From positions 124,001-188,000 of the forward strand of contig CACJQK010000002.1 of the NCBI GenBank assembly GCA_902595515.1: DNA of 64,000 bases. Reading direction: 5' to 3'. Positions within the stretch are counted from its first letter, which is position 1; each line of letters starts with the position of its first letter. The notes under the pieces were generated by a model. That model saw only the letters and a program-made list of their open reading frames with translations. It did no database searches and was not told the origin of the DNA. This document shows, in pieces, positions 2,723-64,000 of this stretch. This stretch comes from an uncultured SAR116 cluster alpha proteobacterium (GTDB lineage Bacteria; Pseudomonadota; Alphaproteobacteria; Puniceispirillales; Marisalimonadaceae). The position numbers and the translations under genes are program-made.

Positions 2723-3886
2723 TTAATTAGCTTTTAAATGTCTTGAAATAATAACTCTCATTATTTCATTAGTCCCCTCTAAGATTTGATGAACCCTTAA
2801 ATCCCTTACAAGTCTTTCTAGCGGAAAGTCTTTCAAATATCCATAACCACCATGAATTTGAAGAGCCATATTACATATCTCAGAGCATACATCCGTTGCA
2901 TATCTTTTAGCCATTGCACATAGTTTTGTAGCTTGTTTATCTGCGGTATCTAATGCACAAGCGGCTCTTAAAACCATAAGGCGAGAAGCCTCCAACTCAG
3001 TTGCCATATCCGCTAACTTAAATTGTGTGACTTGGAATTTGTCTAGTGATTTGCCAAATTGTTTTCTTTCTGCAGAATAACTGATAGATGCTTCTAAAGC
3101 TGCTCTTGCTCCACCCAAAGAACATGCGGCAATATTTACTCTTCCACCATCTAGACCTTTCATTGCAATTTTAAATCCATCGCCTTCATTTCCAACAAGA
3201 TTATCTATTGGTATTTCACAATTATCAAAATTTACCATAGATGTGTGTTGACTATTCCAACCCATTTTCTTTTCTTGTTTTCCAAATGATAAACCCTTTG
3301 TTCCTTTTTCTACTAATATACATGAAACACCACTAGCACCTTCTTCACCTGTTCTGCACATTACTGCAAAAATATCACTTGTAGGTCCTCCAGATATAAA
3401 ACTTTTTGAACCATTTAAAACGTAATGACTATTTCCTTTTTTTGTAGCTTTAGTTTTCAATGCCACAGCATCTGATCCAGAACCTGGTTCTGTAAGACAG
3501 TAACTAGACATCATTTGCATAGTTGATAACTTTTTAATGAACCTTTCTTTTATATGATCTGATCCATGAGCATCTATCATCCAAGTAACCATATTATGGA
3601 TAGATATATAAGCTGCAGTGGACACACATCCCCTAGAAAGTTCTTCGAAGCAAATAGCAGCATCCAACCGACTAAGGCCTGAACCTCCATAAGTCTCATT
3701 CACATAAATAGCAGCCAAACCAAGTTCAGCCGCTTTTTTTAAAGTTTCGACAGGGAAAATTTCGTTTTGATCCCATTCAGATGCATGAGGCATGAGTTCT
3801 GTTTCAGCGAAATTTTTTGCCATTTCTTTTATATTTAACTGATCCTCGTTATATTCAAAGTTCATTTTTACCTCTTCATTACCCAT
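2723..3886 (-). CDS. Acyl-CoA dehydrogenase, isobutyryl-CoA dehydrogenase-like
   Basis: ACAD motifs YCLTEPGSGSDA, catalytic ILEGTNEIMRVI; neighbour of HIBCH-like gene. Real start may be the internal Met (MNFEYNEDQ). Confidence 0.88.
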   Translation of the reverse strand: MGNEEVKMNFEYNEDQLNIKEMAKNFAETELMPHASEWDQNEIFPVETLKKAAELGLAAIYVNETYGGSGLSRLDAAICFEELSRGCVSTAAYISIHNMVTWMIDAHGSDHIKERFIKKLSTMQMMSSYCLTEPGSGSDAVALKTKATKKGNSHYVLNGSKSFISGGPTSDIFAVMCRTGEEGASGVSCILVEKGTKGLSFGKQEKKMGWNSQHTSMVNFDNCEIPIDNLVGNEGDGFKIAMKGLDGGRVNIAACSLGGARAALEASISYSAERKQFGKSLDKFQVTQFKLADMATELEASRLMVLRAACALDTADKQATKLCAMAKRYATDVCSEICNMALQIHGGYGYLKDFPLERLVRDLRVHQILEGTNEIMRVIISRHLKAN

Positions 3887-3896
3887 TTCATACTTA

Positions 3897-5498
3897 CTAA
3901 ATTTTATGTGACTGCAAAATCATCTCTGATGCCTTTTCAGCAATCATTAATGTCGGCGCATTCGTATTACCAGAAGTTATAGTGGGCATTACTGAAGCAT
4001 CAGCAACCCTAAGACTATCCACTCCTCTTACTTTTAAGTTACTATCTGTCACTGAGGTTTTATTAGAGCCCATTGCACACGTGCCGACTGGATGAAAAAT
4101 CGTTGTACCAATATCACCAGCAACTTTTTTGAGTTCATCTTCAGATTGAAACTGTATACCCGGCGCAAATTCTTTGGGATTATATTTTTTCATTGCAGGT
4201 TGGGAAATTATTTTTCTTGCTAACTTTATAGATTGAGCAGCTACAATTTTATCTTTTTCTTCAGATAAGTAATTGGGGTCTATTGATGGAGCTATCTTGT
4301 AATCTTTTGAAGTAATGTGAACTTTCCCTCTGCTTTGAGGGTTAAGGTTACAAACACTTGCTGTTAAACCTGGAAAACTATGTAAAGGGTCTCCAAATTT
4401 ATCTAAAGATAGAGGTTGGACATGAAATTGAAGATTGGGTGTTTCATAAGATTTATCAGACATTGCAAAAACACCTAATTGACTTGGCGCCATTGACATT
4501 GGTCCAGATCTCTTGAGAGCATATTCCAAACCAATAGCTATTTTACCAAGTAAAGAGTTTGCTTTTTGATTAAGTGTTTTAGCATTTTCTAGCCTATAAA
4601 TAACTCTCAATTGAAGATGATCTTGTAAATTCTCACCAACATTATTACTCTCAACCAAAGTATTAATGCCTAAGTTTGAGAGTATTTTTGGATTACCAAT
4701 ACCTGATAATTCTAATATTTTAGGTGACCCAATAGATCCAGCAGAAAGTATAACTTCTCTGTTTGCAAAAATGTCTTCTAGCTTTCCATTTCTAAATACT
4801 TGTATACCTTTGCACTTTTTATTGTTCAAAATTATTTTATTAACTTCACATTTACTTATTATTTTAAGGTTCTTTCTGTTTTGAATTGGTTTAATAAATG
4901 CTTTAACAGTATTCCACCTAAATCCAGAATTTTGATTTACTTTAAAATAAGAAACTCCAAAATTATTTCCTTCATTAAAATCATCTGTTTTAGGTATTCC
5001 AGCTTCAATAGTTGCGTCTCTAAAACTATCTAAAATATCCCATGAAAGCCTTTGTTGATTTACTTTCCATTCGCCACCAGCGCCATGAAACTCACTTTCA
5101 CCATCATAACTATCTTCCATATTTTTGAAATATGGTAAAACATCATCCCAACTCCAACCTTCATTACCCATTTGTCTCCATTGGTCATAATCACCTGCTT
5201 GTCCTCGCATATAAATCATACCATTTATAGACGAACAGCCTCCCATGATTTTACCTCTTGGATAATTTAGAGATCTTCCGTTTAATCCTTTTTGAGAAGT
5301 AGTTTTATAAAGCCAGTCTGTTCTTTTATTTCCCATACAATAAAGGTATCCAACTGGTATATGAACCCAGTGGTAATTATCATTTCCTCCAGCTTCTATT
5401 AATGCGACAGAATATCTATCGTTTGCTGATAATCGATTCGCTAAGAGACATCCAGCAGTTCCTGCACCAACAACGATAAAATCAAAGCTTTGTGTCAT
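3897..5498 (-). CDS. GMC-family FAD-dependent oxidoreductase (choline/alcohol dehydrogenase-like)
   Basis: N-terminal DFIVVGAGTAGCLLANRLS, GGCSSINGMIYMRG, C-terminal HPVGTCAMG and NTNAPTLMIAEKA. Confidence 0.92.
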   Translation of the reverse strand: MTQSFDFIVVGAGTAGCLLANRLSANDRYSVALIEAGGNDNYHWVHIPVGYLYCMGNKRTDWLYKTTSQKGLNGRSLNYPRGKIMGGCSSINGMIYMRGQAGDYDQWRQMGNEGWSWDDVLPYFKNMEDSYDGESEFHGAGGEWKVNQQRLSWDILDSFRDATIEAGIPKTDDFNEGNNFGVSYFKVNQNSGFRWNTVKAFIKPIQNRKNLKIISKCEVNKIILNNKKCKGIQVFRNGKLEDIFANREVILSAGSIGSPKILELSGIGNPKILSNLGINTLVESNNVGENLQDHLQLRVIYRLENAKTLNQKANSLLGKIAIGLEYALKRSGPMSMAPSQLGVFAMSDKSYETPNLQFHVQPLSLDKFGDPLHSFPGLTASVCNLNPQSRGKVHITSKDYKIAPSIDPNYLSEEKDKIVAAQSIKLARKIISQPAMKKYNPKEFAPGIQFQSEDELKKVAGDIGTTIFHPVGTCAMGSNKTSVTDSNLKVRGVDSLRVADASVMPTITSGNTNAPTLMIAEKASEMILQSHKI

Positions 5499-5623
5499 AC
5501 AGATTGCCTTTTATAATTGTATAAAATAATAAAAATTGATATTATAGTATTTGATCTAAAATTAATTTTCTATGTAAAAAATTTAAATCTGCTTCAAAAG
5601 ATAATTTTTAAAACCACTTAATT

Positions 5624-6406
5624 CTACTTTTCGTTCCAAGAAGGAGGTCTTTTGTCTAAGAAGGCACTAATACCTTCATGTGCGTCTATTTCCATCATGT
5701 TAATTGCCATTACTTCAGAAGTATAGTGATAAGCCTCATCTAGTGACATGTCTACTTGTTTATAAAAAGCCTCCTTTCCAATCTTTACTGTAGAAGTTGG
5801 CTTTGAAGCAATTAATTTTGCCAAGTTTAGTGTATCAACATGAAGCCGTTCTAATGGCACACATTTATTAATAAGCCCAAACTGAACAGCTTCTTGTGCG
5901 CTAAGTTTTTCACCAGTTAAAAGCATTTCCATGATTTTTTTTCTGCTAATGTTTCGAGAAACCGCAACCATAGGTGTTGAGCAAAAAAGACCTATATTTA
6001 CACCTGGTGTCATAAATGAAGATTGTTTCGAAGCAACAGCTAAATCACAAGTTGCTACTAGTTGACAACCAGCAGCAGCAGCAATTCCACAAACTTCAGC
6101 TATCACTGGTTGTGGCAACCTTAATATGGTTCGCATTAAGATTGAACATTCATCAAATAAATTTTTAAAGAAAACTTTATTTTTCTTGTTTTGTCTCAGT
6201 TCTTCTAGATCGTGCCCAGCTGAGAAACCAGGTCCCTCAGAAGAAATAATTATTACTTTTATTTTAGTTTGCGCAGAAACATCTCCTAAAGCTTCTGTAA
6301 GATTTTTTATTAATTGTAAAGATAATGGATTGTGTTTTTCACCGTTAGTTAATTCTATCCTAACTATGTTTTCAGTCTCATTTTTAATAGAAAAAAAATT
6401 ATCCAT
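5624..6406 (-). CDS. Enoyl-CoA hydratase/isomerase family protein
   Basis: Crotonase motifs GFSAGHDLEEL and GIAAAAGCQLVATCDLAVAS. Confidence 0.87.
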   Translation of the reverse strand: MDNFFSIKNETENIVRIELTNGEKHNPLSLQLIKNLTEALGDVSAQTKIKVIIISSEGPGFSAGHDLEELRQNKKNKVFFKNLFDECSILMRTILRLPQPVIAEVCGIAAAAGCQLVATCDLAVASKQSSFMTPGVNIGLFCSTPMVAVSRNISRKKIMEMLLTGEKLSAQEAVQFGLINKCVPLERLHVDTLNLAKLIASKPTSTVKIGKEAFYKQVDMSLDEAYHYTSEVMAINMMEIDAHEGISAFLDKRPPSWNEK

Positions 6407-6538
6407 TTTTTGATCATAAATTGTTTATTTACCATTTGAAAGATATTTTGAATTTTGGTCAATCAATATTCTTATTTTATTGTTTATTTTACTTAAAATA
6501 AAAATCACATTAAATTGAATAAAATGAATTGTTATTAA

Positions 6539-7717
6539 ATGAAAAATTTTAATTATAAAGTTTTAGTCTTAATTTTAACTGGAACAGCCGCTCTTGCTTT
6601 AGCAATAGGTATTGGTAGGTTTACTTATACTCCTATATTACCTTTTATGTTAGAAGAGTTAAACATTACTAAAACTGAGGGTGGTTTAATTGCCTCATGG
6701 AACTTTTTTGGGTACTTATGTGGTTCACTGTTATCAATTTCTTCAATTTTTAAAAAAAGAGTTAAGCTTGTTTTTTTTATTTCTATAGTTTTTTCAATAT
6801 CAACTACATTTTTAATGAGCATAGATGATGAAGTGATATTTTTTATTATTATTCGATTTATAAGTGGTTTATCCAGTGCTTTTGTTCTCATATTTGGCAC
6901 AGCGTTAATTCTACCAAACATACAAGCATTAGGGAAAAAATCACTTAGCACTTCACACTTCATGGGTGTAGGTTTTGGAATAGTCATATCTTCCATTCTA
7001 GTTACATTTTTAGGAGAATTAGGTTTCCATTGGGATGATTTATGGATTGGTGTGGCTGTGTTATCAGTAATCTTAGCTGTTCCAATCTTTATATGTACTC
7101 CTAACGAAATTTTGCAATATTCATATTCTCAAAATTCAAATTATAAAAATAATTTTAGTTTTTCTTTAATTTCTACTTCGTATGGTTTGTATGGTTTTGG
7201 ATACGTAATTTTGGGGACGTTTATTTCAGCCATGGCTAGAGAAACATCTGGTCTAGAAGCTACTGAAATGTATGTTTGGTTGTTAGTAGGTTTAGCAGGC
7301 ATACCTATGGTTATTTTTTGGCCATGGTTTGGTAAAAAAATCGGCAATGACTTAGCTCTTTTTTTAGCTTGTGCAATAATGGGGTTAGGAGTTTTAATGC
7401 CCGTGCTATTAGAAAATAAAGTTGGGATTACTTCTGCATCTATTTTGCTTGGCTCAACGTTTATACCAATAACTGCACTTGCATTATTAGAGGGTCAGTC
7501 TAGATATAAGGGATCGATTAGAGTCTCTACTGCTATTTTAACTTCATCATTTAGTGTTGGGCAAATGATAGGACCTTATTTCGGTGGATTTATAATAGAT
7601 TTATTTAATTCTTATAGTATTGCATTAACAATATCCTCAATATCACTTTTTATTGCTTCTATATTAATGATTAATCCTAAAAGATTTCTTGGTAGTAAAT
7701 TTAGAGATATTCTTTGA
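6539..7717 (+). CDS. MFS transporter, YbfB/YjiJ-like
   Basis: About 12 hydrophobic segments; N-terminal GIGRFTYTPILPFM typical of the YbfB/YjiJ family. Confidence 0.8.
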   Translation: MKNFNYKVLVLILTGTAALALAIGIGRFTYTPILPFMLEELNITKTEGGLIASWNFFGYLCGSLLSISSIFKKRVKLVFFISIVFSISTTFLMSIDDEVIFFIIIRFISGLSSAFVLIFGTALILPNIQALGKKSLSTSHFMGVGFGIVISSILVTFLGELGFHWDDLWIGVAVLSVILAVPIFICTPNEILQYSYSQNSNYKNNFSFSLISTSYGLYGFGYVILGTFISAMARETSGLEATEMYVWLLVGLAGIPMVIFWPWFGKKIGNDLALFLACAIMGLGVLMPVLLENKVGITSASILLGSTFIPITALALLEGQSRYKGSIRVSTAILTSSFSVGQMIGPYFGGFIIDLFNSYSIALTISSISLFIASILMINPKRFLGSKFRDIL

Positions 7718-8756
7718 GAATTCTTGAACCTAAATCTGCGACTGGTTCTGCTTGTTCTCCAACTTCATAAGCATTTTCACCTGAGTTATTTCCATCAATA
7801 ACACGCTTTGCTATACCTTGAAGAATACCTGCAAATCTAAAACAATTGAATGCTAGTAAAAACTTCCAATATTTTGGCTTATCAAAACTAGTTAAGTTTA
7901 AATAACTTTCTAAAATTTTATCTTCAGTTGGTATGCCTGAGTAAAATTTTTGATTATTAAAATTACTTAAACCACCTATTGGCCATGTTTTTTCGAAACT
8001 AAGCATTAATACCCAATATGATAAATCAATAAAAGGAGGTGATAGTGTTGACAATTCCCAATCTAACAAACCAATTATTCTTGGGATAGATTTGTTTTTT
8101 TCTAAAATCATATTATCTAAACGAAAATCACCGTGTAAAAGGCATGGTTTTAAATTATCTATTTCAGTTGGAATATACTTTGGTATAGTGTCAATTAAGT
8201 ATTCCATACTTTTTATATGTTTTGTTTCAGAGTCTCTGTATTGTTTTATCCACAAACTGATTTGTCTTTCAAGATAACCATAAGGTTTACCAAAATTCTC
8301 TAAACCAATTTTTTTTAAATCTATTTTAACTAATTCTGCCAAAATTTTGATTTTATGTTTATAAATTTTGTCTCTTTGTTCACTTGTATAATTTGAAAGA
8401 TCTGGATCAAACTCATGTGCCCCATTTATAAATTCCATAACATAAAATTCACTTCCAATTATATCTATATTACTACAATATCCATACATTTTAGGAGTAG
8501 GAATTTTTGAATTAGATAAAGCACTCATCACCTTATATTCTCTGTCAATCCGATGTGCACCTCTTAGAAGATTACCCAATGGTTTTGACCTAAGTACAAA
8601 GTTTTTATCTTCAGATTTTAAAAGAAAAGTAGGATTAGATTGGCCAGTTTCAAACTTTGTAATAAATAAAATTTTTTCATCAATCGATGTGTTTTTTTTT
8701 AACCAAAGATTTATGTTATTAATTTTATTTTTTACTGACATATTTACATGACTCAT
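7701..8756 (-). CDS. Phosphotransferase (APH fold), ACAD10/11 kinase-domain-like
   Basis: Kinase motifs LLHGDFRLDNMIL and GLLDWELSTLSPPFIDLSYW; adjacent ACAD10/11-like dehydrogenase. Confidence 0.85.
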   Translation of the reverse strand: MSHVNMSVKNKINNINLWLKKNTSIDEKILFITKFETGQSNPTFLLKSEDKNFVLRSKPLGNLLRGAHRIDREYKVMSALSNSKIPTPKMYGYCSNIDIIGSEFYVMEFINGAHEFDPDLSNYTSEQRDKIYKHKIKILAELVKIDLKKIGLENFGKPYGYLERQISLWIKQYRDSETKHIKSMEYLIDTIPKYIPTEIDNLKPCLLHGDFRLDNMILEKNKSIPRIIGLLDWELSTLSPPFIDLSYWVLMLSFEKTWPIGGLSNFNNQKFYSGIPTEDKILESYLNLTSFDKPKYWKFLLAFNCFRFAGILQGIAKRVIDGNNSGENAYEVGEQAEPVADLGSRILKEYL

Positions 8757-8805
8757 TTATTGTTATTGAAACATAAATTTTAAATTATTTTTAGGTATAT
8801 GATAC

Positions 8806-9540
8806 ATGAGCGTTCAATCTAACACTGTTTTAATAACTGGTGCAAGCAGAGGGTTAGGCTCAAATTTTTCTAAGGTATTAGCAAAGGATGGTTTCCGAAT
8901 TATTGGTGTTGGACGTAATATACAAAATCTAAAATCAGTTATTTCATCTCTTCCTAACCCAGAATTAGGTCATTCCTATTTAGAACTTGATATTACAGAT
9001 GAGTTACAAGTTCGTGATATGTTAAATAATTTAAATATTTACGCCTTAATAAATAATGCAGGTATTGCAAATACCAAATTGTTACATGAAGAATCTTCTT
9101 CAGATTTAACAAAAATAATTAATACAAATTTACTAGGTTCAATCAATGTATCAAATGCTTTAATTCCAAATATGATTAAGAATAAAAACGGCAAAATTAT
9201 TAATATTGCTTCCACTCTTGGTTATAGACCTTTATCATTTGTTGGAGCATATTCTGCAACTAAAGCTGCCTTAATACAAATTACTAAATCTCAATCAATA
9301 GAATTAGCAAGATATAATATATGTGTTAACGCACTTGCACCAGGCTATATACTAACTGACATCAATAGAAAACAATTAGATGGTGAAGCAGGCGTTTTAC
9401 TTAAAAAGAAAATACCACTCAGAAGATTTGCTACTGTAAAAGAGCTTGATGTAATTATTTCTATGTTAGTAAATCCACTAAATACCTATATGACTGGTGC
9501 TACAATAGCTGTTGATGGTGGACTAAGTACAGGACTTTGA
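8806..9540 (+). CDS. SDR-family oxidoreductase
   Basis: TGASRGLG, NNAG, YSATKAA, ITVDGG-like C-terminus (IAVDGGLSTG). Confidence 0.9.
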   Translation: MSVQSNTVLITGASRGLGSNFSKVLAKDGFRIIGVGRNIQNLKSVISSLPNPELGHSYLELDITDELQVRDMLNNLNIYALINNAGIANTKLLHEESSSDLTKIINTNLLGSINVSNALIPNMIKNKNGKIINIASTLGYRPLSFVGAYSATKAALIQITKSQSIELARYNICVNALAPGYILTDINRKQLDGEAGVLLKKKIPLRRFATVKELDVIISMLVNPLNTYMTGATIAVDGGLSTGL

Positions 9541-51883: not shown

Positions 51884-53740
51884 TTAATGACAGTAAGGTT
51901 GGGAAAATGATAATGCTTGATCACTTAAAACTTCAAGCATATATCCAGCATCCAGAACTGGTGCTTGTATTTTTATTATTTGTGGAATAAGTATAAATTT
52001 AAAAATGCCTTCACCAAATAACACAATATCAGGATTAAATTTATTAATTAAATCGATATCTAAAGATGCCTTACAAGTAAACTCCGAGCTTATCCTAAAA
52101 TGTTTAACCTCTAAAACACCTTTTTCAATTAATGACTCTGAAACCCTATTAGCCTTACTGGCAAGAAAAGAACTTATAACTAAAACTTTTTTTCTGTAAA
52201 ATATTTTACCCCTACTAATCATAGCATATACAAAATAAAAGGGAAAAAGCTTTTTATCAAGTTTCGATGAATCTAGTTTAATAAAAGTACGTAAAAATTT
52301 ATTTATATAAGGTATTTGATTTTTACTTTTATTTGACCAAGATAAATGAGCACAAAAAACTATCTCGTTACTATGATTTCTTATATTTAACCAACTTTTA
52401 TTTCTAATTATTTTAAGTAATTTACGAGATATTTTACTATTTCCAGAATAATTAGTATTAGAAATTTCAAATTTGTTAGTTGAAAAAAATTTTATTAGTC
52501 TAAACAAAGCTCCTAATCTTGATTTCAATGAAATACCTTTTGATAATAGAGGTAGCCCATACAACAACTTAAATTCATCTTCCGAAAATCTAAGGAGTAG
52601 CAATGATGTTTTTTTTTCTGTAGAAAAAATAACCATCCTCTCTAACTCATCATAGATTGTTTGTGCGTTATGACCTCTTTTTATTATTGAAAAAACTCCG
52701 TTTCCCCATCTGCAGAAATGATCTAAATTTAGTCTAGAAACTATAAAATTTTTATTTAATTTATTAGAGGTTTTTAAACAATCTCGACTTGACGGAGAAA
52801 TATATCTTAATGAATAATATAAATGTTTAAAAAAAATAACTCTTAAAACAGTCCATATACTTGACTGAGTGTAGTGACTTGTTATAGCCAAGATCCACCT
52901 CTGGAGCATTTTACCTTCAAAAGATCCAAAGTGTACTTTAGTAAGTTTACCTATCCTTAGATAAGTTTTAAAAATCTTGTAATTTTCATTTTTTTTACTC
53001 CATAATAAAGTACTGACCTTCAAACTCAAAAGATGTTTTTTGAAATCATCAAAAAAAGATTTATTTTTTAACAAGCCAGAGTTTATATCATGTAACGAAC
53101 TGTTAGCATTATGTCGTCTATATAATTGAAGATTTTCTAAAACTATTTTTCTACGAGACACTAAATTTGCTATTAAATGTGCTTGTTCGTCATATTCTAA
53201 GTAATCAAAAAGTCCTTCTAGCATTAGATCTGATACACGTCTAGTGATAGCAGTACAACAGCCTGCAATAAAAGGATCAAAACTGCCAAAGTAATTTCTA
53301 ATTATTTTTGCCTTTGATAGTCCAAATTTTTGGTTTTTATCCCAATAGAATTGACAATTATTAATTACAGCGTCACAGAACCCATTATTTAAATATTTTG
53401 ATGTAACTTCTATCTTATTTCTATTCCATATATCGTCTTGATCAGAGAAATAAATAATATCTGATTTTACAAACTTTAGTCCATAACGAAAAGCACTTGA
53501 ATACCCTTGCTTTTTTTTATTTTTCACTATTTTATTTTCGATTGAATAATTTTTCAAAATTTTTAACATATTGATTCTTAATGTTTTTGAAAAATAACCA
53601 TCAACTACAATTATTATTTGGTTTGGCATAATTGATTGTTCCAAAATTGATATGAGTTGGTACTCTAAATATTTCACATTTGGTTTATGCACAGCCATTA
53701 CAACTGATATAAGGTGGTTAGTCAAAATCCAAGCTTTCAT
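51884..53740 (-). CDS. Two-domain glycosyltransferase: N-terminal GT2 plus C-terminal GT-D-like domain
   Basis: N-term LISVVMAVHKPNVKYLEYQLISI and YFSDQDDIW; C-term LLLLRFSEDEFKLLYGLP and PVLDAGYMLEVLSDQ. Confidence 0.7.
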   Translation of the reverse strand: MKAWILTNHLISVVMAVHKPNVKYLEYQLISILEQSIMPNQIIIVVDGYFSKTLRINMLKILKNYSIENKIVKNKKKQGYSSAFRYGLKFVKSDIIYFSDQDDIWNRNKIEVTSKYLNNGFCDAVINNCQFYWDKNQKFGLSKAKIIRNYFGSFDPFIAGCCTAITRRVSDLMLEGLFDYLEYDEQAHLIANLVSRRKIVLENLQLYRRHNANSSLHDINSGLLKNKSFFDDFKKHLLSLKVSTLLWSKKNENYKIFKTYLRIGKLTKVHFGSFEGKMLQRWILAITSHYTQSSIWTVLRVIFFKHLYYSLRYISPSSRDCLKTSNKLNKNFIVSRLNLDHFCRWGNGVFSIIKRGHNAQTIYDELERMVIFSTEKKTSLLLLRFSEDEFKLLYGLPLLSKGISLKSRLGALFRLIKFFSTNKFEISNTNYSGNSKISRKLLKIIRNKSWLNIRNHSNEIVFCAHLSWSNKSKNQIPYINKFLRTFIKLDSSKLDKKLFPFYFVYAMISRGKIFYRKKVLVISSFLASKANRVSESLIEKGVLEVKHFRISSEFTCKASLDIDLINKFNPDIVLFGEGIFKFILIPQIIKIQAPVLDAGYMLEVLSDQALSFSQPYCH

Positions 53741-59434: not shown

Positions 59435-60397
59435 CTAAATTTTTAGATAATCTTTTTTATTACAATACCACTCATAGGCATCTTTAAGTCCAATTTCTAA
59501 ATTAATTGAACTATTCCAGCCTAAATTTTTTAACTTTGATACATCTAAAAGCTTTCGAGGAGTTCCATCGGGTTTTCCTTCATCAAAAATTATACTACCC
59601 TTAAAACCGACAACTACACTAACTAATTCTGCTAATTCTTTAATAGTAACATCATAACCAGTTCCTACATTAATATGAGGAGCTTGTTGAGAAGTAACAT
59701 TATCATATTCTTGACGATCTAATCCTAACACGAACAAACATGCGCTTGCCATATCGTCAACATGTAGAAACTCTCGCCTAGGATTTCCAGTCCCCCATAC
59801 CACTACTTCTTTTTGTTTATTTAACTTTGCTTCATGAAACCTTCGTAATAATGAAGGTACAACATGGCTGTTTTCCGGGTGAAAATTATCACCTGGACCA
59901 TAAAGATTAGTTGGCATTACTGCTCTATAATCTCTTCCATATTGACGATGATAACTATCACACATTTTTAACCCAGCGATTTTGGCAATCGCATATGGCT
60001 CGTTGGTTGGTTCTAGTTTTCCATCCAGTAAATAATGTTCTTTTATAGGCTGAGGAGAATGTTTTGGGTAAATGCATGATGATCCTAAAAATAATAATTT
60101 ATTAATATCCAGACGATGAGCACAATCTATGATATTTGTTTGTATTTGAAGATTTTCATTAATAAATTGAGCAGGATAGATGTTGTTTGCATTAATTCCT
60201 CCAACCTTTGCGGCTGCTAATATTATCTGAGTGGGTTTATTTTTTTCTAAAAAGTTTCTTACTGCATACTGATTTGTAAGATCTAGTTGTTTCCTAGATG
60301 CTGTGATAAGATTTAAATCTTTCTTTTTGGACAGAATTCTAAGTATTGCACTGCCGACCATACCATTATGACCTGCTATATATATTGAGTTTTTCAT
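59435..60397 (-). CDS. fcl: GDP-L-fucose synthase
   Basis: [62 protein letters not shown]. Confidence 0.96.
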
Positions 60398-60428: not shown

Positions 60429-61520
60429 TTATGTAATAGACTTTTTTTGTGCTTCTTTATTTAAAATATTGTAATCCTCAAGTACCATTTGGCGACACAT
60501 CTCTCTTGCTGAAATTTTAGGTTCCCAACCCAAAACTTTTTTAGCTAAGCTGGCATCACCAAGCAAAGAATCAACCTCAGAAGGTCGGAAATATCTTGGA
60601 TTAATCCGAATTATTTTTTGTCCAATTTGAGCGCCAGTCGCCTTATCACCATTGATTTTAACAATTTTTCCAACTTCTTCCAATCCGCTACCATTAAATT
60701 CAATAATCATACCTAGGTCTTCGCAAGCCCATGTAATAAAATCACGAACAGAATGCTGCTTACCAGTAGCTATAACAAAATCTTTTGGATAATCTAACTG
60801 AAGCATTAACCACTGCATTTCAACATAATCTTTTGCATGACCCCAGTCTCTTAAAGAATTGATGTTTCCCATATATAAACAATCTTCCAAACCAAGGGCT
60901 ATTTGCGCAATGCCACGAGTTATTTTACGAGTTACAAATGTTTCACCACGACGTGGGCTTTCGTGATTAAACAATATGCCATTGCAAACAAACATATTGT
61001 AAGCTTCACGATAGTTAACAGAAATCCAGTAAGAATATAGTTTTGCAACTGCATAAGGAGAACGTGGATAAAATGGTGTTTTTTCATTTTGAGGAACTTG
61101 TTGAACTAGACCATAAAGTTCTGAAGATGAAGCTTGATAAAATTTTGTTTTTTTTAAACCTAAAAACCTTACAGCCTCTAATAGTCTTAATGTTCCAAGA
61201 GCATCAATGTTTGCTGTGTATTCAGGGGTTTCAAAACTAACTGCGACATGACTTTGTGCAGCAAGGTTATATATTTCGTCAGGTTTAACTTCACTAATTA
61301 CTTTTGTTAAGTTAGATGAATCTGCCAGATCTCCATAATGAAGTTTTAAATTTTGTTCATCTGTATTTGGATCCTGGTAGAGATGGTCTATTCTTCCAGT
61401 ATTTAAAGAAGAAGACCGTCTTTTTAAACCATGTACTTCATATCCTCTATCAATTAAAAATTCAGCCAGATACGAACCATCCTGTCCAGTTACACCGGTA
61501 ATTAGAGCTCTTTTTTTCAT
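60429..61520 (-). CDS. gmd: GDP-mannose 4,6-dehydratase
   Basis: [54 protein letters not shown]. Confidence 0.97.
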
Positions 61521-61569: not shown

Positions 61570-62244
61570 TTACCATTCATCCTCACTCCTCAAATCAATC
61601 TCTATGTCTTCACGGTCAAAATAGTTTCGATATTTTTTATATATTAATTCAGAGGCTTTTTGAGGATCTTCAGCTTTTGTTTGATGAAATTTTTTCATAT
61701 CGGGATATAAAAACACATCCAAAGACTTTATTTGTTTATTCATATTTGTACTCAAAATACCAGGACTGATTAGTTTAAAATTCAATTCTGGAAAATCTTT
61801 TTGATACTGAAGTAACATAGATCTAAAAGCAGATTTAGTAACACAGTAATTCAGCCAACCATCATAATTTTTAGTAGCAGCTCCAGATGATATTCCAATA
61901 AAATATTTACATCCATTTAATATACTCCAATCAATAATGATTTTGTTAGCAACTACATTGATTTTTAAGGCTTCTAAAAATTCTTCCACTTTTATCTCAT
62001 TAGCAGATCCAATAGTGCCCAATGTTCCTGCATTTAATATACATAATTCATGCTTAATTTTATTCATTTCTAATTTTTGTTTTAAACCTGATAAATCCTC
62101 TAAATTAGATATAATATTATATTGGCTTGAAGATATCCTTCTGGAAATGTTTATAATGTCATAATACTTTGAAAATGATTTGTATAAATACTTTCCAAGA
62201 CCAGAAGATGCGCCAGTGATTACTATTGATTTGTTTTTACTCAT
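61570..62244 (-). CDS. SDR-family oxidoreductase
   Basis: VITGASSGLGKYLY, LNAGTLG, YCVTKSAFR; overlaps aldolase gene by 8 nt. Confidence 0.87.
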   Translation of the reverse strand: MSKNKSIVITGASSGLGKYLYKSFSKYYDIINISRRISSSQYNIISNLEDLSGLKQKLEMNKIKHELCILNAGTLGTIGSANEIKVEEFLEALKINVVANKIIIDWSILNGCKYFIGISSGAATKNYDGWLNYCVTKSAFRSMLLQYQKDFPELNFKLISPGILSTNMNKQIKSLDVFLYPDMKKFHQTKAEDPQKASELIYKKYRNYFDREDIEIDLRSEDEW

Positions 62245-63181
62245 TAGTTAAGAATTTTTTATTATAATTATCTTTTGAAAATCCTGTAATTCCCTCTAAA
62301 CGAGTTGCAAACTCGCTTGGAGCAAGACCTATTTTTTCAGCTTCAACCGCATAATGATCTGTAATACTATCTCTAGCCGTTAAAATCCCATATGGTCCAG
62401 ACGGCATTAAGAACAAATTCTTATCTATTATTAAATGATCTAATATATGTTCTCTTCCACGAATATCAAAAACGTGCTCTAATCTTAAATTACCCAAACC
62501 CTTACCTAAACCACCTAGAGAAACATCCGTTGCTTCAAAACCAGCGTTTAAAAGATTCCTATAATTAAAATAAGCTTTTCCTGAATGGTCATGTAGGTGA
62601 AGTCCAGGTGTCATGCCAATTTCTTTAATCAACTTTGTGTATTTCTTAAATATTGCTAATTTTTGACCTAAATCAAGACTTCCATGCGTATCAGCGAAGT
62701 ACATGAAATCTGCGTTTGAACCAGTTGCTAACTGACATGCTATTGCTAAATCATCTTCTGTATAATTAGTAATATTGAAAAAATTTATACTTAATTTACA
62801 TCTAGCATATTTTTTTAGCTCTTTTACAAACATGCAACCTTCTTTTATATCCTCTTTTCGCAAACAAACCCTAATTAATCCTAATTCTTTGAAATTAAAA
62901 TTACTTGGAAAATCTTCGATATTGTGAGAACAGTAATGATAATCAACCATAATAGAGACTTTTTTCTTAGTCATTTTACAGATAGATTTAAGTAATTTTT
63001 CTTCAATAGAGTAAAAAGGACCGTCAAATTTACCACTTTGCTTCCAATATCCTAGTTCAATAAATTCAATTTCTGGAAACAAACTGATAGATTCCATATA
63101 CCTTTGAACAAATTCTAATGGCCAATTAAAGCCATGTTGGTGCCCACCATCTCTAAGAGTAACATCAATAAATTTCATCAT
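62237..63181 (-). CDS. DRE-TIM (HMGL-like) aldolase, 4-hydroxy-2-oxovalerate aldolase-like
   Basis: DVTLRDGGHQHGFNWP, GLHLHDHSGKA, DVSLGGLGKGLGNLRLE. Confidence 0.82.
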   Translation of the reverse strand: MMKFIDVTLRDGGHQHGFNWPLEFVQRYMESISLFPEIEFIELGYWKQSGKFDGPFYSIEEKLLKSICKMTKKKVSIMVDYHYCSHNIEDFPSNFNFKELGLIRVCLRKEDIKEGCMFVKELKKYARCKLSINFFNITNYTEDDLAIACQLATGSNADFMYFADTHGSLDLGQKLAIFKKYTKLIKEIGMTPGLHLHDHSGKAYFNYRNLLNAGFEATDVSLGGLGKGLGNLRLEHVFDIRGREHILDHLIIDKNLFLMPSGPYGILTARDSITDHYAVEAEKIGLAPSEFATRLEGITGFSKDNYNKKFLTNE

Positions 63182-63849
63182 TTATCTTTCAAAAACCTTG
63201 CAAATTCTAGGTCATCAAAATTGTCAATTTCGACACTTTCAATATGACTTAATGGATAGAAAAGTAATGGTTCTGGTAAACGTTTTTTTTGATCCAATAT
63301 ATCACCTGCTTTTGCAATAAAAAAAGCACCCTTCGACACAAAAATTGGAGATAAATCTTGGGTGCGTTGAACTCTATCTGTAAAAAAATTTACAGAAGAA
63401 ACATCACTATCATTTTTTAACCATACAAAATCTTGAATTTTTAAAACTGAATGAATAGACTTGGCATAAGGATCATTGCGTAACACATTGACTGCATCAA
63501 ATATCGTGTTTTTTTTTAGAAATGGGGACGTTATATGTGTTAATACTACTATCTCGGATGTATCTAAGGTGTGGCAAAAATCAAATAACATATCCTCAAC
63601 CGGACTAGAATCAATGTTTTCATTATTTTCCCAATCTATATGTCTTTGTTTCCTTTTAATTACATTAATTGATTTCATGTTAGAATTTTGAATTTGATCT
63701 ATAAACTTTTGACTGTCTGAATTTACCGTTACATCAAGGTCCTTTAATTCGGAAAGTAAATGCCACCAGAGAGGATGACCATTAATATCTTTAAAATTTT
63801 TGTAAGGTATTCTTTTTGAATCTTCTTTTATTATTGTGAAGACTTTCAT
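63178..63849 (-). CDS. Acylneuraminate cytidylyltransferase-like (NeuA-like)
   Basis: FTIIKEDSKRIPYKNFKDINGHPLWWHLL, VVLTHITSPFL, NFDDLEFAR; start placed at internal Met (63849); track ORF extends to 63864. Confidence 0.78.
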   Translation of the reverse strand: MKVFTIIKEDSKRIPYKNFKDINGHPLWWHLLSELKDLDVTVNSDSQKFIDQIQNSNMKSINVIKRKQRHIDWENNENIDSSPVEDMLFDFCHTLDTSEIVVLTHITSPFLKKNTIFDAVNVLRNDPYAKSIHSVLKIQDFVWLKNDSDVSSVNFFTDRVQRTQDLSPIFVSKGAFFIAKAGDILDQKKRLPEPLLFYPLSHIESVEIDNFDDLEFARFLKDK

Positions 63850-63850
63850 A

Positions 63851-64000
63851 TCAATTTTGACCATTTATAAATGTTATAATAAGTTCTCTTTTTCTCATCG
63901 GATCTAACTCAACAAAAAAAATACGCTTCCATTTTCCTAGCCTTAATTTACTGTTTTTTACAGGTATATTCTCGGATGAGTTAAAAAACAAAGATCTAAT
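63851..64000 (-). CDS. YjbQ/UPF0047-like protein, C-terminal part (truncated by window edge)
   Basis: Hand-translated partial frame IRSLFFNSSENIPVKNSKLRLGKWKRIFFVELDPMRKRELIITFINGQN*; resembles the YjbQ C-terminal 'LG.WQ.I...ELD..R' motif; absent from the ORF track. Confidence 0.6.
   Translation of the reverse strand: MRSLFFNSSENIPVKNSKLRLGKWKRIFFVELDPMRKRELIITFINGQN

Follow-up and report, generated by a model that had tools for sequence, protein, structure and literature searches.

A conserved aldolase–cytidylyltransferase cassette in SAR116-cluster bacteria as a candidate route to a CMP-activated ulosonate

Introduction

What does an operon make in which a DRE-TIM aldolase gene overlaps that of a CMP-sugar cytidylyltransferase and no PEP-dependent synthase gene adjoins the pair? 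To our knowledge, the skeleton of every CMP-activated 2-keto sugar acid with an established biosynthesis (sialic acids, Pse, Leg, Kdn and Kdo) is built by such a synthase. The locus lies at the right end of the window, by which we mean the whole stretch of 64,000 nucleotides analysed here and which comes from the 201,877-base contig C2; the assembly (G000) totals 1.87 Mb and is 80% complete. A preliminary description of this DNA had proposed that the aldolase replaces the PEP synthase and that the product is activated with CMP. Our analysis makes it fairly likely that the operon supplies the cell surface with a CMP-activated 3-deoxy-2-keto sugar acid, or 'ulosonate', whose skeleton comes from a pyruvate aldolase and not a PEP synthase; every reaction, each substrate, the sequence of steps and the acceptor molecule are what we infer. 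On this reading, the operon is a variant of CMP-ulosonate biosynthesis and not a new kind of system.

Results

All cassette genes lie on the minus strand, which had gone unmentioned in the preliminary description, and are transcribed from position 64000 towards 61570. The four tightly packed co-directional ORFs described there are all present with the spacing and overlaps given. They are the 3′ part of yjbQ (UPF0047; 63851–64000), a CMP-sugar cytidylyltransferase of the CTP_transf_3 family (63178–63864), a DRE-TIM (HMGL-like) aldolase of 314 aa (62237–63181) and a short-chain dehydrogenase/reductase (SDR) of 224 aa (61570–62244; PF00106 38.2 bits, with TGASSGLG and YCVTK motifs in the translation). 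The block is real, but a fifth gene beyond the window edge had been missed. In locus L002, where positions equal window positions minus 56000, the whole yjbQ gene (149 aa) spans 7851–8300, and a KdsC-family phosphatase of 181 aa at 8303–8848, outside the window and also on the minus strand, is the first gene of the cassette and ends 2 nt upstream of yjbQ. The complete order from 5′ to 3′ is manC, kdsC-type phosphatase, yjbQ, cytidylyltransferase, aldolase, SDR, gmd and fcl. The last two, both on the minus strand, are context: gmd (GDP-mannose 4,6-dehydratase; 60429–61520; PF16363 497 bits) is not a member of the cassette and follows it in the window's genome only, and fcl (GDP-fucose synthase-like epimerase; 59435–60397; PF01370 212.6 bits) is followed by a gene that looks Wzz-like by eye and then by a long polysaccharide cluster. 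The window also encodes, at 51884–53740, a 618-aa glycosyltransferase with an N-terminal GT2 domain whose second half, of ~300 residues, has no family match.

At the junction of yjbQ and the cytidylyltransferase gene the letters read TGA-T-ATG, so that the ATG at 63849 (223 aa) stands one base past the yjbQ stop; an alternative in-frame ATG upstream, at 63864 (228 aa), would give a 14-nt overlap with yjbQ. The cytidylyltransferase and aldolase genes overlap by 4 nt, and the aldolase and SDR genes by 8 nt. Such tight spacing is not due to chance, since it is similar in four other genomes.

The aldolase occurs in 5 of 136 genomes of the order (G000, G421, G434, G446 and G455), and in all five the yjbQ, cytidylyltransferase, aldolase and SDR genes stand in identical order with a short aldolase–SDR overlap; the four genes thus co-occur as a block in four genomes besides that of the window. 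A kdsC gene stands in front in four of the five (the G434 copy is cut by a contig end); G446, 88% complete, lacks one. Proteins of the relatives' cassettes share ~62–86% identity with the window copies, and pN/pS values of ~0.10–0.35 for all five genes indicate purifying selection. The closest relatives with the operon are SAR116-cluster alphaproteobacteria according to public records, one of them labelled Pseudomonadota only. Assemblies of the cassette genomes are 68–88% complete, and hence gene absences among them are weak evidence. Scanning the genome collection with a five-row aldolase alignment, built on clade-specific peptides, recovered the four known loci and no others, and viral contigs scanned for the aldolase gave no match; a phage search gave one faecal contig, which carries no annotation. 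Surroundings of the cassette vary from manC and gmd–fcl in the window to flagellar genes in G446 and G434 and a tetratricopeptide-type (TPR) protein in G455 and G421. With such differing surroundings, the cassette is a movable unit of surface-glycan metabolism.

The cassette aldolase is a distant relative of 4-hydroxy-2-oxovalerate aldolase (HOA). A PF00682 match above cut-off, an Arg-Asp-Gly start, the Glu, HxH and GN motifs and a TIM-barrel fold place it in the DRE-TIM metallolyase superfamily, and R10, D11, E42, H195, H197 and N231 are invariant in an alignment of short and long aldolase forms. H14 follows the RDG motif with the spacing of the catalytic His20 of BphI; long forms have Tyr at this position. 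With the HOA aldolases (DmpG, BphI and HsaF) and with PDB 3dxi, a putative aldolase of Bacteroides, it shares the fold, the Arg-Asp-Gly start, the HxH metal motif and GxGxGN. It differs from them in that its identity to solved or characterised relatives is 20–29%, its score is far below the HOA cut-off (TIGR03217 26.4 against 286 bits), no gene for a partner acylating aldehyde dehydrogenase (acetaldehyde dehydrogenase) accompanies it and its context is that of biosynthesis of surface glycans. We know of no enzyme activity for this DRE-TIM subfamily.

Claisen-type synthases also exist in the superfamily, and the protein might be one of them, isopropylmalate- or homocitrate-synthase-like and acting on acyl-CoA, with the cytidylyltransferase activating a branched hydroxy acid. 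Weak matches to LEU1/NifV models agree with this reading, as does a different aldolase relative in Legionella that lies near an isopropylmalate-dehydrogenase-like gene. However, profile and fold searches (model pLDDT 64) placed 3dxi first and the HOA pyruvate aldolases next, with isopropylmalate and homocitrate synthases behind; the motif DVSLGGLGKGLGN resembles DxSLxGxGxGxGN of HOA aldolases and is unlike EGTINGIGERAGN of isopropylmalate synthase (IPMS); and the presence of a KdsC-type phosphatase suggests a sugar phosphate. We hold a Claisen-type activity to be quite improbable and retain a pyruvate aldolase as the preferred assignment.

The cytidylyltransferase matches PF02348 above cut-off (38.8 bits), its nearest model is PseF at 42.5 bits, far below the cut-off of 205.7, and in Foldseek the CMP-Neu5Ac, CMP-Pse and CMP-Kdn synthetases rank first (model pLDDT 59). 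The earlier label 'NeuA-like' fits with respect to the CTP_transf_3 family and the fold, but the enzyme is not a canonical NeuA: Gln104, Asp209 and Asp211 (N. meningitidis numbering, PMC2901514) align to His110, Glu212 and Asp214 in all five copies, and Lys stands for Arg12. In N. meningitidis, a change of Gln104 cripples the use of Neu5Ac (PMC2901514), and the His present here in all five copies speaks for a substrate sugar different from Neu5Ac. This His was rejected as a signature of linkage to an aldolase, as an Enterobacter plasmid encodes a NeuB-linked enzyme that also has it.

Absence of neuB from the window, as previously stated, is correct, and it extends to the 12 kb beyond the window and to the whole G000 assembly at its 80% completeness; to the right of 64000, no neuB, kdsA or TPP-enzyme gene adjoins the operon. 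The ordinary housekeeping kdsA of G000 is on contig C5, away from the cassette, and for this reason the cassette was rejected as the cell's Kdo route. These locations bear on a reading in which an ordinary nonulosonate or Kdo pathway has its synthase elsewhere and the aldolase is a side enzyme that degrades or recycles the keto acid to pyruvate and a sugar. NeuB genes on other contigs in G446 and G421 and the kdsA of G000 would agree with it, and aldolases are reversible. However, NeuB was found neither in G000 nor in G434, both incomplete assemblies; the aldolase gene overlaps that of the cassette's own cytidylyltransferase, with a phosphatase gene also in the cassette; independent lineages pair the aldolase, and not NeuB, with a CMP-sugar cytidylyltransferase (see below); and a catabolic aldolase has no need of CMP activation. 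Such a side role seems improbable to us.

The cassette runs parallel to NeuB operons of the same order. Its phosphatase belongs to the KdsC/YrbI family (TIGR01670 138.5 against a cut-off of 106.95 bits, with DVDG and GDD motifs) and falls below the model of the KdsC equivalog proper, the Kdo-8-P phosphatase (NF007019 126 against 208 bits). KdsC-type phosphatases are rare in the order (9/136 genomes): four are in the cassette, four stand beside NeuB (G480, G443, G411 and G429; three of these loci also have a cytidylyltransferase in the stretch read) and that of G417 is elsewhere. Their association with the cassette, in four of five cassette genomes, gives a Fisher p of 4.5e-5 when kinship is ignored. 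Two NeuB operons (L084 and L086) contain genes for a SIS isomerase, KdsC, NeuB, a xylose-isomerase-like TIM barrel, a NeuA-type enzyme and an SDR, and G411 (L085) has SIS, KdsC and a shortened NeuB at the site equivalent to that of the window, as judged from the gene order between an amidase and a PIG-L gene. The window cassette corresponds to such a NeuB operon with the aldolase at the place of NeuB and, perhaps, YjbQ at that of the SIS sugar-phosphate isomerase. At L085:1034-2667 of G411, an opposite-strand ABC transporter gene overlaps the shortened NeuB, as if the cassette there had been partly replaced.

With the NeuB/NeuA pathways (CMP-Neu5Ac, CMP-Pse, CMP-Leg and CMP-Kdn), the cassette shares the fold family of the cytidylyltransferase, a HAD phosphatase as in the Kdn and Kdo type, a probable use on flagellin or surface polysaccharide and, through G411, a chromosomal site. 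It has a CTP_transf_3 cytidylyltransferase as such pathways do, whereas a DRE-TIM aldolase is present instead of the PEP-dependent NeuB and YjbQ is found where relatives have the SIS isomerase. With the Kdo pathway (KdsD-KdsA-KdsC-KdsB), it shares a KdsC-family phosphatase, a CMP transferase and the logic of condensation, dephosphorylation and activation; in contrast, its condensing enzyme is not KdsA and its cytidylyltransferase is not of the KdsB type.

Aldolase–cytidylyltransferase pairs recur in several other marine bacteria. A distantly related long aldolase form (~535 residues) occurs in one family of ~1-Mb alphaproteobacteria, where 26 of 296 genomes carry it; 24 of these have a cytidylyltransferase gene immediately downstream (L099-L124, L125-L136), mostly of the KdsB type and in a few cases of the NeuA type; several of these operons extend into radical-SAM/SPASM protein and SDR genes. 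Another proteobacterium (G376) and Leisingera plasmids have the order long aldolase, cytidylyltransferase and HAD hydrolase, and an Acuticoccus plasmid (L066:5183-8344) combines genes for an aldolase/citrate-lyase-family (HpcH/HpaI) protein, a NeuA-like cytidylyltransferase, a phosphoglycerate-dehydrogenase-like protein and a HAD hydrolase. Varied cytidylyltransferases and phosphatases beside the aldolase are expected if chemistry, and not common descent, keeps these genes together. A Legionella plasmid aldolase was not counted as a parallel because Pfam shows no cytidylyltransferase-like neighbour, and neither were aldolase relatives of G130, Mesorhizobium, Paraburkholderia and Priestia. On two rhizobial plasmids (L093:4125-8224 and L094:3261-8809), a related aldolase lies beside SDR and HAD-IA genes, with no cytidylyltransferase. 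For the C-terminal domain of the long aldolases (~235 residues), neither Pfam (above cut-off) nor the PDB gave a match; it carries a conserved LAGFDG motif (L042:8037-8750, L092:7880-8593 and L097:5988-6701; alignment A6).

YjbQ is a very widespread protein, and the cassette copy is a regular member of UPF0047 (PF01894 86.6 bits and TIGR00149 74 bits, both above cut-off) that shares His37, Glu46, Asp54, Asn96, His100, Asp133 and Arg136 with distant YjbQ proteins. In each cassette genome, it is the sole YjbQ. The preliminary description saw no obvious role for it, and this can be improved upon: the position in the cassette and the neighbours in other genomes suggest sugar-phosphate chemistry. 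In Shinella, Enterococcus and Lacticaseibacillus (L068, L069, L071, L073 and L075), yjbQ lies directly 3′ of a triose-phosphate-isomerase-like gene in sugar-metabolic operons, and no RpiB-like gene is annotated near these loci; YjbQ may on these grounds be a sugar-phosphate isomerase, a role that would fit its position in the cassette. In Thiodictyon, yjbQ precedes a RuBisCO-like gene.

Which surface molecule receives the sugar may differ between genomes. In G446, the genes beside the cassette encode three proteins of the flagellin type as well as two sigma-54 regulators, and the same regulators are found in G434. Directly upstream of the cassette in G455 and G421 is a TPR protein with a layout like that of the flagellin O-glycosyltransferase FlmG of Caulobacter (PMC7591256), as the G455 protein consists of a TPR N-terminus and a C-terminal domain of ~280 residues (563 against 596 aa); the donor in Caulobacter differs, being CMP-pseudaminic acid from NeuB (PMC7591256). 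TPRs were detected in this neighbour of the cassette, and Pfam and PDB searches with its C-terminal domain gave no match, the one family hit being a weak one to Aah/TibC. At least some relatives probably attach the sugar to flagellin; for the window's genome, a polysaccharide whose synthesis uses GDP-fucose is the probable acceptor. No CMP-sugar glycosyltransferase family was recognised among the window glycosyltransferases scanned, which were a subset of the ORFs.

Alternatively, the cassette may serve primarily flagellin glycosylation, with its site in the window's polysaccharide cluster reflecting recent transfer and its product perhaps still reaching flagellin, a reading that differs from the model above in the acceptor only. 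The flagellar neighbours in G446 and G434, the FlmG-like protein in G455 and G421 and four flagellin matches in G000, of which those listed sit on another contig, all speak for it. On the other hand, the cassette in G000 has manC on one side and gmd–fcl on the other, a search of that genome for FlmG-like proteins gave none at E<1e-10, and TPR glycosyltransferase-like genes are so common in the order (59/136 genomes) that adjacency in two is limited evidence. We give flagellin as the primary acceptor somewhat less than even credence.

Discussion

According to our model, YjbQ would most likely convert a sugar-phosphate precursor to an aldehyde phosphate in an isomerase- or epimerase-like reaction, and the aldolase would join pyruvate to this aldehyde, probably still phosphorylated, to give a 3-deoxy-2-keto acid phosphate. 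The KdsC-type phosphatase would then release the free keto acid, the cytidylyltransferase would couple it to CMP, and the resulting CMP-sugar would enter surface glycans, with the SDR presumably oxidising or reducing one position as a redox step. The carbon number, the roles of YjbQ and the SDR and the acceptor are all what we infer from the locus.

Conservation as a unit, the lack of an adjoining NeuB or KdsA, the parallel with NeuB operons, recurring aldolase–cytidylyltransferase pairs and intact motifs support the model; it is weakened by the missing kdsC of G446, by the lack of a recognised CMP-dependent transferase in the window cluster and by the incompleteness of the genomes. The original proposal, that the aldolase replaces the PEP synthase and the product is CMP-activated, withstood both the search for a synthase next to the operon and the survey of gene neighbourhoods, and in outline it is the best explanation. 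The KdsC-type phosphatase, the NeuB operons of relatives and the independent pairs strengthen the idea of an aldolase for a synthase.

A more specific version is unlikely in our judgement: YjbQ would be a sugar-phosphate isomerase (for example, from a ketotetrose phosphate to erythrose 4-phosphate) feeding the aldolase, the product would be a CMP-activated C6 to C8 ulosonate such as a 3-deoxy-heptulosonate, and aldolase-type CMP-ulosonate pathways would form a widespread second class beside NeuB and KdsA in ocean bacteria. If a pyruvate-aldolase class is present in SAR116, 1-Mb alphaproteobacteria and roseobacters, genome surveys based on neuB and kdsA would overlook some of the ocean's ulosonate glycans; a DRE-TIM subfamily would also gain a function, and there would be a lead on YjbQ. 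The five cassette proteins are small and intact, which makes direct in vitro testing feasible. A literature search, with most subscription journals outside its scope, found no paper on such an aldolase–cytidylyltransferase pair.

In a flagellar cluster of G455 (L088, G455:C4:18000-32000), positions 3290-7217 hold genes for a DAHP-synthase paralogue (TIGR01361 above cut-off), a shikimate-dehydrogenase-like protein, a GT2-like protein and a PseF-like cytidylyltransferase, a group that possibly supplies flagellin with a CMP-activated heptulosonate made along a PEP route.
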